Shown: in pieces, positions 169 through 3,774 of the stretch
How the letters are laid out: the number at the start of each line of letters is the position of its first letter
How positions within the stretch are numbered: the stretch's first letter is position 1
Made by a program: the position numbers and the translations under genes
Notes under the pieces: model-generated
What the model was told of the DNA's origin: nothing
What the model saw: the letters and a program-made list of their open reading frames with translations, nothing else
Database searches by the model: none
Origin: a virus
Strand: one strand, 5' to 3'
Virus record (IMG/VR): IMGVR_UViG_3300032435_000085
Span: 1 to 20,951 of that record
Length of the DNA stretch: 20,951 nucleotides

Positions 169-351
169 ATGACAGATAAACAAATCCAAGCACTCGACAC
201 GTGGTCCGCACTCGCTTTGTGCCACCGGCTAAAGATCAGGACCACGGGGCGCAAGCCCGCTATCCTCACCCGGTTGCAGATCTACGGCAACGCGCACCCC
301 CAGGAGTTGGAAGCGGCATATAACCGCACACCCCCTAGCGTGGGAATTTGA
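169..351 (+). CDS. small SAP-like DNA-binding protein (60 aa)
   Basis: The central part (about residues 9-40: LDTWSALALC, then GRKPAILTRLQIY) resembles the SAP motif, a helix-extended-helix fold that binds DNA, with the usual Leu spacing, the TGRK turn and a final Arg-Leu-x-x-Tyr. Family members include small phage DNA-binding proteins and domains fused to larger DNA enzymes. The last codons (RTPPSVGI-stop) are encoded by copy 1 of the 23-bp repeat, and the stop TGA overlaps a TTG that could start the next frame. Position as the first gene before the primase-helicase suggests a role in origin binding or replication control; that is inference. ATG at 169 is the only sensible start, without a clear ribosome-binding site. 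Confidence 0.65.
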   Translation: MTDKQIQALDTWSALALCHRLKIRTTGRKPAILTRLQIYGNAHPQELEAAYNRTPPSVGI

Positions 352-376
352 GACCCCCTACCGTGGGAATTTATGA
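331..376. repeat. direct repeat pair A (2 x 23 bp)
   Basis: Two head-to-tail 23-bp units at 331-353 and 354-376, sharing CCCCCTAsCGTGGGAATTT and differing at one base in this core. Unit 1 covers the end of the SAP-like gene, including its stop; unit 2 covers the region just upstream of the primase-helicase ATG. The 23-bp spacing is typical of iteron-type protein-binding sites. A second copy of the whole pair lies at 1045-1090. Confidence 0.9.
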
Positions 377-431
377 ACTACTACAAAGCGTTCCCTCGAC
401 CATGAGATACTCAGGCGGTGAGGGGCACAAC

Positions 432-2954
432 ATGGGTCTGGTCAAGACTCTGCCCCAGACAACTTTTGACGCCTTGGTCAAGGAGCAACTGGGTCACCCT
501 GTCCCACTTGCTCTAACCAAGGACGAGTTCATGGCACTCACGCCGGAGCGGCAGAATGCGGCCAAGATGACCCGCTACCTGACGCCGGGCTTCATCGCTG
601 GTGAGTCCCGGAGAAACGAGTATGTTGAGACGTGTAACTTAGTGTTCCTAGACATCGATGTCGAGTATGCTGACAAGGCTAAGACCCAAGTTCTCGCAGT
701 GCCAGCCGAACCGATCATGCGCCGGCTGGCGGACATGCCTAACATTCTCGCCCCCTTTAACTATGCGATCTACCGGACTGCAAGCTCCACTCCTAAACTC
801 CCTAGACTACGTATCGTCGTAGACGCTAACCAGATACCGGTTACAAGTTACCCGGCAGCGGTTAGCTACGTAGCCCGGATGCTGGGCTTGTCTAGCGTGA
901 CGTCTGAGTCGGTGAGAGTAGCCCAAGCGATGTTCCTTCCGGTGCTGTTCCGGGGAGAGCTGGAGCACCCGCTACTGGCCACCCGGTTCGATGGGAGAGC
1001 CTTGGTCCTGGGGGACTACGACGAGTCAGTGGATCTCCTAGGCACCCCCTCACGTGGGAATTTGAGAGCCCCTAGCGTGGGAATATATGACACCTTTGAG
1101 CACCTGCGACCGGCGTTGGACGAGGTGTCCATTGCAGACGTCGAAGGCGCACTAGCGAACATCGACCCAGACATTGATCGAGCTGACTGGATCCAGATAG
1201 GTGCAGGGCTCAAACACCAGTTCGGGGAAGAGGGTCTAGCTATTTGGGGCGCGTGGTCCCGCACCGGCGAGAAGTTCGAGGGTGACGACAAGTTGCAGAC
1301 CCAATGGGATAGCCTCAAAGGCACCCCCCGAGGCCGGGCCCCTGTCACCGTCCGCACGGTGCTCAAAATGGCGAGAGCTAATGGGTGGGCCAGTGATGAG
1401 GTAGCACAGCGATGCTTCCAGAGCACCTCAACGTGGATCATTGACCCCTCTCGCAGTGAGATCGAGTTGATGCAAGGTGGGGTGACCCGCATCGCCGGCA
1501 CCCCCCTGCTGACGACCGTCGAGAAAGGCGTGCTGCTCAACAAACTCTCACGGGCTCTACGACTCAAGGATGCCCCTATCAGCAGAGCCGATCTCACCAA
1601 AGGTTTACGCAAGGCTGAACGAGAGCTGCGTGGGCGAGGAGGGGACCACGAGGGAGTCAACGGGACTCAGCTACCTGAGTGGGCCAAAGGCATCACGTAT
1701 GTAGCCCAGTCTAATGAGTTTTACCGACAAGGCAGCAGTCAAAAGTGGAGCGTAGACGCGCTAAACAACAATTTCAGCATGTTTCTGGTCGCCGAAGGTC
1801 AGGACGAGGAGAACGCGAGACCGGCTATCCTACCTCAGCACTACCTGCTCAACATGGTCAAAATCCCTCGGGTGGATTACTACCTCTACGATCCCACCCA
1901 GCCTAATGAGGCTACCGTGGAGATTGAGAAGAGGTTCTACATCAACACTTACCGAGCGACGTATCCGGGTGGAGACGCCCCCAAAGAAGCCGCTGACAAG
2001 ATAGGTAAAACCATCCTCGATCACACCCACATGTTGTTCGGGGACACCCCGGAGGCACGGCAACTGATTGATTGGATGGCGTTTCAGGTGCAAAATCAAG
2101 GAGGTCGAGTGCTGTGGGCTCCCATGATCCAAGGGGCTGAGGGATGCGGCAAGACGCTCTATGCAGTGGTCCTACGGCTGGTGCTAGGCGAGGAAAACGT
2201 GAAAGAGGTCCAACCTAACGTAGTCATCCACTCAGACTGGAACGAGTGGGCTGCGAACTGCCAACTGGTTGTCCTCGAAGAAGTGCGCGTGGTCGGGGAG
2301 AACCGGCACGCAGTTATGAACAAGCTCAAGCCTTTGATCACCAACACCCACATATCGATCAACCAGCGTAACACGGATACCCGCGTCGTGCCGAACTACG
2401 CCAACTACTTCCTGACCAGCAACTTTGCAGATGCTCTAGCGATCACCGAGAACGACCGTCGATACTTCGTGATGTTTGCCCGGCAACAAACCAGGGCCCA
2501 AGTGCTGGCGATAGGTCAACCGTATTTCCGCAGCCTCTACGACCAGCTTCGTCGCAACCCCCAAGCCCTCCGCACCTGGTTGATGGAGTGGGACATCTCC
2601 CCGAGCTTTGACGCCATGTATTGCCCGACAACGGCTGACAAGTCACTCATGACAGAGGCCGCTTGCCCTCCGCTACAGCGTGCGGTGACCGAGATGATCA
2701 GCGACGGGGACAACCCGCTGGTCCAAGCGGATCTGGTGTCAGCTAAAGTGCTGCGTCAGATGATCGAGCAGGAGTCAAGGGGCTTGGGACGCTTCAGCGA
2801 CCAGTCTCTGACCTCTGTGCTACGCGAAATCGGCTACGAATCCGCTGGTCGCACACGTATCGATGGAGATAGACACTCAATCTGGGTGAAAAACCTTGAC
2901 CACGCATCAGCTTTAACACTCGCTCGCCTAAGAGCAGACCATTCTGACTTATAA
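432..2954 (+). CDS. primase-helicase (AEP-like primase, PriCT-2, D5/SF3 ATPase)
   Basis: Makes primers and unwinds DNA at the replication fork. Domains in order: an AEP/prim-pol-like N-terminus with the metal-binding FLDIDV (about residues 72-77) and a TPKLPRLRIVVDA strand; a PriCT-2 domain (about 230-315, with WIQIGAGLKH and AIWGAWS); and a C-terminal D5/SF3 ATPase (DUF5906-like) with Walker A GAEGCGKT (about 567-574), Walker B LVVLEEV, sensor strand FLTSNFADAL and DRRYF. I chose ATG 432 because GTGAGGGG lies 8 bases upstream and family members start close to the GLVKTLP segment. ATG 402, or TTG 348 overlapping the previous stop (TTGA), are possible and would give up to 868 aa. Repeat pair B sits in the linker between the primase and PriCT-2 domains. 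The downstream gene overlaps the stop by one base (TAATG). Confidence 0.93.
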   Translation: MGLVKTLPQTTFDALVKEQLGHPVPLALTKDEFMALTPERQNAAKMTRYLTPGFIAGESRRNEYVETCNLVFLDIDVEYADKAKTQVLAVPAEPIMRRLADMPNILAPFNYAIYRTASSTPKLPRLRIVVDANQIPVTSYPAAVSYVARMLGLSSVTSESVRVAQAMFLPVLFRGELEHPLLATRFDGRALVLGDYDESVDLLGTPSRGNLRAPSVGIYDTFEHLRPALDEVSIADVEGALANIDPDIDRADWIQIGAGLKHQFGEEGLAIWGAWSRTGEKFEGDDKLQTQWDSLKGTPRGRAPVTVRTVLKMARANGWASDEVAQRCFQSTSTWIIDPSRSEIELMQGGVTRIAGTPLLTTVEKGVLLNKLSRALRLKDAPISRADLTKGLRKAERELRGRGGDHEGVNGTQLPEWAKGITYVAQSNEFYRQGSSQKWSVDALNNNFSMFLVAEGQDEENARPAILPQHYLLNMVKIPRVDYYLYDPTQPNEATVEIEKRFYINTYRATYPGGDAPKEAADKIGKTILDHTHMLFGDTPEARQLIDWMAFQVQNQGGRVLWAPMIQGAEGCGKTLYAVVLRLVLGEENVKEVQPNVVIHSDWNEWAANCQLVVLEEVRVVGENRHAVMNKLKPLITNTHISINQRNTDTRVVPNYANYFLTSNFADALAITENDRRYFVMFARQQTRAQVLAIGQPYFRSLYDQLRRNPQALRTWLMEWDISPSFDAMYCPTTADKSLMTEAACPPLQRAVTEMISDGDNPLVQADLVSAKVLRQMIEQESRGLGRFSDQSLTSVLREIGYESAGRTRIDGDRHSIWVKNLDHASALTLARLRADHSDL
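1045..1090. repeat. direct repeat pair B (2 x 23 bp), inside the primase-helicase gene
   Basis: Second copy of the 46-bp repeat pair, with units at 1045-1067 and 1068-1090. It matches pair A at 41 of 46 positions (unit 1 differs at two bases, unit 2 at three). It lies 714 bp (238 codons) downstream of pair A in the same reading phase and encodes the linker TPSRGNLRAPSVGIYD between the primase and PriCT-2 domains. A TTG at 1062 sits at the same place in this pair as the TTG at 348 in pair A. Confidence 0.9.
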
Positions 2955-3351: not shown

Positions 3352-3774
3352 ATGAGCCTAGAAACCGTATTACAAAACCTCGCTGACGCTATCAACCGCG
3401 TCGCTGACAACATGCCCTCCACGAAGGAAGCTGTCCCCTCTGCCCCTTCCCCCGCTACCGAGGCTGCCGAGAAGCCCGCTACCCCTTCACCCGCTGCCGA
3501 GAAGCCCGCTGCCGAGAAGCCCGCTGCCGAGAAGCCCGCTGCCGAGAAGCCCGCTGCCGAGAAGCCCGCTGCCGAGAAGCCCGCTGCCCCCAAGGAGCCT
3601 GCGGCTACCATCTCCCTTGCTGACCTCCAATTGCTAGGAGCACCGTTGGTCGCAGCTGGTCGCCATGGCGAGCTGAAGAAGGTCATCGTGGACCACAAGG
3701 GGACGAAGTTGTCCACTCTCCCTGAGAGCACCTACCCCAGCGTCAAAGCTGCTCTGGAGGCACTGCTGGCATGA
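3352..3774 (+). CDS. AEKPA-repeat linker protein with conserved C-terminal domain (140 aa)
   Basis: Three parts are visible. A short N-terminal helix (MSLETVLQNLADAINRVADN) looks like an oligomerisation segment. A long Ala/Pro/Glu/Lys-rich linker (about residues 24-82) includes six perfect AEKPA repeats. A C-terminal domain (about 88-140: ADLQLLGAPLVAAGR, then TKLSTLPESTYPSVKAALEA) resembles a short module at the end of many phage DNA-associated proteins, where a conserved small domain follows a low-complexity linker. Its role is unknown; a flexible tether in the replication complex is a guess. No Shine-Dalgarno precedes ATG 3352. The stop overlaps the next start (ATGA at 3771-3774), so it is probably co-expressed with the DUF2800 nuclease. 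Confidence 0.85.
   Translation: MSLETVLQNLADAINRVADNMPSTKEAVPSAPSPATEAAEKPATPSPAAEKPAAEKPAAEKPAAEKPAAEKPAAEKPAAPKEPAATISLADLQLLGAPLVAAGRHGELKKVIVDHKGTKLSTLPESTYPSVKAALEALLA
3493..3582. repeat. six perfect tandem 15-bp repeats
   Basis: GCTGCCGAGAAGCCC is repeated six times head to tail without a mismatch, encoding AEKPA units. An isolated seventh copy lies at 3463-3477. Perfect identity at third codon positions points to recent expansion by slippage or recombination, so copy number may vary between related phages. Confidence 0.95.

Follow-up and report, generated by a model that had tools for sequence, protein, structure and literature searches.

Paired 23-bp repeats around a phage primase domain are most likely protein-binding control sites and carry a motif found in other environmental phages

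Why should the primase-like domain of a phage primase–helicase lie between two copies of the same paired repeat? The window, a 20,951-bp stretch of viral DNA (IMG/VR record IMGVR_UViG_3300032435_000085), encodes a portal, a major head protein, PolA, an SNF2-type helicase, a DUF2800 exonuclease and a single-strand binding protein, along with the primase–helicase itself (402–2954, + strand), which is formed by an N-terminal primase-like domain (PHROG primase match), PriCT_2 and a DUF5906 helicase-like part. Four 23-bp units are present, all on the + strand: A1 (CCCCCTAGCGTGGGAATTTGAGA, 331–353; motif score 25.0) and A2 (CCCCCTACCGTGGGAATTTATGA, 354–376) constitute pair A (331–376), and B1 (CCCCCTCACGTGGGAATTTGAGA, 1045–1067) and B2 (GCCCCTAGCGTGGGAATATATGA, 1068–1090) constitute pair B (1045–1090). 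As the first-pass annotation had described, the pairs agree at 41 of 46 positions, with an offset of 714 bp and units 23 bp apart in each. The likeness spans 48 bp (329–376 and 1043–1090), with sharp edges and nothing beyond. Allowing up to three mismatches on both strands, these four are the only copies of CCCCTANCGTGGGAATTT in the window (0.03 expected by chance), a number reached by none of 100 shuffles. Exact patterns of the window units found no match in the other DNA searched. Two other features were seen in passing: positions 26–41 (ACCAGTTACCGGTTAC) and 829–844 (ACCAGATACCGGTTAC) are identical at 15 of 16 bases, the former belonging to a short repetitive tract at the start of the contig, and 3352–3774 encodes a protein of 140 aa that contains a series of AAEKP repeats.

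Alignment with 19 full-length relatives places the primase start at ATG 402 (MRYSGGEG, against MNPRYFGGEP and similar); TTG 348 is therefore no start, pair A lies 26–71 bp upstream of the gene, and the symmetry earlier drawn between TTG 1062 and TTG 348 loses its meaning. Pair A had also been taken to separate a SAP-like ORF from the primase. It is indeed upstream of the primase, but the 60-aa ORF (169–351, + strand; a weak Pfam SAP match, E = 0.009, below cut-off) ends inside A1, which overlaps its last codons and stop (349–351). In relatives this position is held by a small Cro-like or HTH ORF. A SAP gene as common neighbour of the motif was considered and dropped, the small ORF in the L002 group not being SAP-like by eye.

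Pair B, both units of which follow the primase-like domain, corresponds to residues 214–229 of a hypervariable linker that differs in sequence and length between relatives. The window linker has 72 aligned residues, within the relatives' range of 63–81, and so pair B occupies the linker without lengthening it. Nor can amino-acid constraint account for the likeness of B1 and B2, because the 23-bp spacing puts the units in different reading frames (PSRGNL and APSVGIY).

The first-pass annotation had offered a recombination cassette as one reading, in which loss of 714 bp, a length divisible by three, excises the primase domain without a frameshift; the two pairs are similar enough for recombination between them. 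We find this scarcely credible: both parts are present in all 19 full-length relatives (798–880 aa), not one of which is primase-less, the deletion would take out the true start at ATG 402, and the relative G021 is without the repeat at its linker. The repeats are most likely a protein-binding control site rather than a deletion cassette.

G021 (36,717 bp; stretch L161, found with our third search pattern) resembles the window phage in its primase (48% identity), portal (50%), SNF2 helicase (48%), PolA (42%) and head protein (39%). Upstream of its primase, the divergent region contains a five-unit array, and a further strong site with a degenerate partner lies nearer the gene; all sites are upstream and in one orientation, and the primase linker holds no repeat. 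A 59-aa HTH ORF also lies upstream of the primase, and a 370-bp low-complexity CCCGTCCGCCCGTCCA tract (L161:1215–1585) directly precedes the array. Direct relatives of the window primase were found neither by exact peptides nor by DNA, and a search with the window and G021 primases returned G021 plus 24 further loci, 23 of these with a usable match. The exact array is absent from 23 of the 24 related loci, G021 being the sole carrier, and from 10 more distant relatives, which makes the motif patchy in the window primase family. One of these 23 loci, L189, has three copies of a variant, CCCCTAGCGTTGGGTTATT, in reverse orientation upstream of its distantly related primase (L189:4205–4280). The Casjensviridae-type phages AH2, BcepNazgul, JS26 and FoX4 share with the window a small DNA-binding ORF followed by a primase–helicase, with a DUF2800-kind exonuclease nearby; unlike the window, they have no repeats at either boundary.

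The motif recurs elsewhere. Dozens of contigs from uncultured phages, belonging to three or more unrelated groups, carry tandem arrays of 2–8 units spaced 15–37 bp apart, with the consensus CCC-N3-CGTGGGAA followed by A/T; the motif is asymmetric and requires no dyad. Of the 18 stretches matching a first pattern (two CGTGGGAAT 23 bp apart), nearly all have CCC or CCCC preceding the core; a leading CCCC and a trailing TTG/TGA recur although the pattern did not demand them. A looser pattern gave 85 stretches, mostly tandem arrays with commonest spacings of 19, 21, 23 or 25 bp. Arrays differ in spacer sequence and in spacing but retain the core. Repeats in L009, L056, L068, L086, L048 and L087 were dropped as chance matches (GC-rich or coding). 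The carriers range from about 43 to 60% GC and have differing replication genes and gene orders, the arrays often lying just upstream of early or replication operons. Groups A, B and C belong with lineages 7, 11 and 30 to one broad set (related by T7-like replication genes, or by terminase/structural genes). BLAST of group D and the window group against this set revealed no replication or regulatory gene in common and no common binding protein, the tape-measure protein being the only match. Downstream of the main array in group A and C carriers there is a small sigma-70 region 4 protein (for example, L080:2398–2973).

Among isolates, CRP-6 is nearest to the broad set by primase; CRP-6-like phages and the Zobellviridae roseophages have primase–helicase and PolA in common with group A–C carriers, yet arrays are absent from the genomes checked (isolates CRP-4, -5, -6, -13, ICBM2 and SIO1, and the assembled genome T5S1). 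Blastn against cultured phages and plasmids gave no motif match, a search in which low-complexity filtering may hide repeats. The site is no commoner than background in 385 sampled alphaproteobacterial genomes (3 hits; control, 3), and a literature search found no report of the motif. Bacteroidetes chromosomes (Tannerella, Porphyromonadaceae; L107, L114, L117, L122, L124, L125) contain 21-bp intergenic minisatellites, CCCCTACGTGGGAAATTGTCT, between ordinary genes; these are strikingly like the phage unit and may be convergent. Prevotellaceae and Xylanibacter stretches (L100, L101, L103, L105, L119) have tandem TTCCC-N-GGGAA palindromes, apparently intergenic.

A weight-matrix scan finds 4–15 sites per record (some records being incomplete), against a control mean of 0–0.6. 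Within a record every strong site has the same orientation, and overall only two weak sites depart from it. Early genes are read in the direction of the sites and late genes in the opposite direction, as at the endolysin pair described below. Isolated weak sites were dropped as evidence of genome-wide spacing; that at 23291 in G004 falls where three records resemble one another, probably because of the protein sequence encoded there, and others are not conserved.

In several lineages the arrays have a defined position relative to promoters. In A1, A5, A6, A10, C1 (here lineage labels) and G021, sigma-70 TTGACA-like boxes lie 14–31 bp past the start of the last core, the G021 array ending before TTGACG-N17-GATAGT (shuffle p 0.005). 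Group A arrays are mostly upstream of the −35 box and not in the spacer. In B, C2, C3, C4, X7 and X30, the 17-bp sigma-70 spacer is taken up by a single unit, degenerate in some cases, in a register where, counted from the start of the core, the −35 box occupies −10 to −5 and the −10 box +13 to +18. Seven chosen lineages give 54 of 84 matches in this register, where the best register of shuffles averages 33 and none of 2,000 shuffles reached 54; these lineages were picked after the pattern of a unit in or near the spacer had been seen, and in L040 the register is shifted by a single base. Pair B, the endolysin pair and the group D arrays lie away from the promoters of surrounding genes. Within the window, a weak promoter may span A2 (TTGAGA-N18-TATGAA, 348–377, + strand; 9/12 matches) and another B2 (TTGAGA-N16-TATATG or N18-TATGAC, 1062–1091, + strand; 9/12 matches); a promoter scan tool run on the window reported none at either pair.

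Evidence of selection comes from an M15 endolysin gene. In some group A phages it contains two units on the opposite strand, antisense to the gene. A homologue search using the catalytic domain only gave 44 sequences, of which 35 have the pair, 8 are without it and 1 is not comparable. Variation is 0.064 at silent third positions of the core, compared with 0.280 at degenerate third positions of the catalytic domain (25 distinct carriers; P = 0.00095, approximate since the sequences are related, the comparison being within the same genes), and residues adjoining the core change freely. The motif in this gene is under selection at the DNA level. Across these endolysins (L193–L236), the two-unit array is present or absent in frame, in the linker that joins the membrane anchor to the catalytic domain.

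What, then, do the repeats do? The other reading in the first-pass annotation was of iterons, the arrays forming an origin bound by the initiator with pair B as an accessory array, comparable to lambda ori or P4 ori1/crr. The iterons of lambda ori are direct repeats with CCC and GGGAA halves, in the linker of gene O, and both lambda and P4 type I iterons resemble the window repeats in their location, close to or within a replication-protein gene. Spacings of mostly 19–25 bp (against about 17–24 bp for iterons), a location beside and inside a replication gene, and uniform site orientation all agree with such a role, as do main arrays within about 2 kb of the cumulative GC-skew minimum in G015, G011, G004 and G010. 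However, skew minima coincide with divergent gene starts and so give no independent evidence for an origin, and the minimum in the window, at 3628, is away from the repeats. The full range of spacings (15–37 bp) is not helically phased, and, unlike lambda and P4 iterons, the motif is tied to promoters in other lineages and accompanies unrelated replication proteins (a T7-like primase–helicase with PolA in groups A–C, a PriCT_2/DUF5906 primase in the window) while failing to track the window primase family. An origin is rather unlikely. The half of this earlier reading that holds is a binding-site array beside a replication gene, in keeping with the arrays elsewhere, their place upstream of early or replication operons and the DNA-level selection; the evidence is better for promoter operators than for the other half, an origin.

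A short selfish repeat, drifting by slippage or template switching and surviving where harmless (gene ends and linkers), would suit several observations: the near-identical young arrays of L042, L014 and L011, the presence or absence of the pair in the endolysin linker, the abrupt limits of the 48-bp match between pairs A and B, and the look-alike Bacteroidetes minisatellites. Yet silent core sites are conserved against the endolysin gene's own rate, cores persist while their surroundings diverge, and several lineages have a fixed promoter register; we judge this reading quite improbable. A role in RNA, as a hairpin pair or in antitermination or translation control, is very unlikely: CCC and GGG can pair, but neither window pair folds unusually (z −0.8 and −0.9) and the endolysin pair is antisense to its gene.

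We consider it somewhat more probable than otherwise that the repeats are protein-binding sites, each pair acting as a two-site operator for early and replication genes. Pair A, just upstream of the primase–helicase start, would most likely control transcription of this early replication gene, in parallel with arrays in other phages that put a unit in the promoter spacer or lie just upstream of the −35 box. Pair B would be a second copy of the pair in a tolerant linker, and may be an operator acting at a distance, a roadblock to transcription or an additional binding site. The array would be read by a putative protein, presumably phage-encoded and perhaps a repressor rather than an activator, with most copies at the early promoter and few elsewhere.

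The operator reading has a precedent in the operators and stoperators of cluster A mycobacteriophages, bound by L5 Rep (PMC6550527, PMC9283540). The L5-type system has an asymmetric site of 13–14 bp, 20–30 sites per genome and a phage HTH repressor, and its stoperators follow transcription (PMC6550527, PMC9283540). The sites described here are likewise asymmetric, of similar length, several per genome and mostly in one orientation, with some inside an early promoter (in other lineages; in the window the candidate promoters are weak) and others in or between genes. They differ in forming tandem arrays, in numbering 4–15 per record rather than 20–30, in an orientation that follows the DNA strand and so runs against the late genes, and in a motif common to unrelated phage groups, its repressor being putative.

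That last difference bears on how widely the motif is used. A phage operator normally co-evolves with a single repressor, and unrelated phages have different ones. In the present case, tailed phages of three or more unrelated groups, whose replication systems differ, would share one DNA-binding specificity, which could amount to a common early-gene control code, a proposal that we put forward tentatively and regard as doubtful. If true, it would perhaps bring cross-immunity among phages that are unrelated, or place them under a mobile regulator common to all; should one protein family read the motif, such phages living in the same waters could hold early-gene control in common, or compete for it. 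The motif also makes it simple to search uncultured phages for early promoters.
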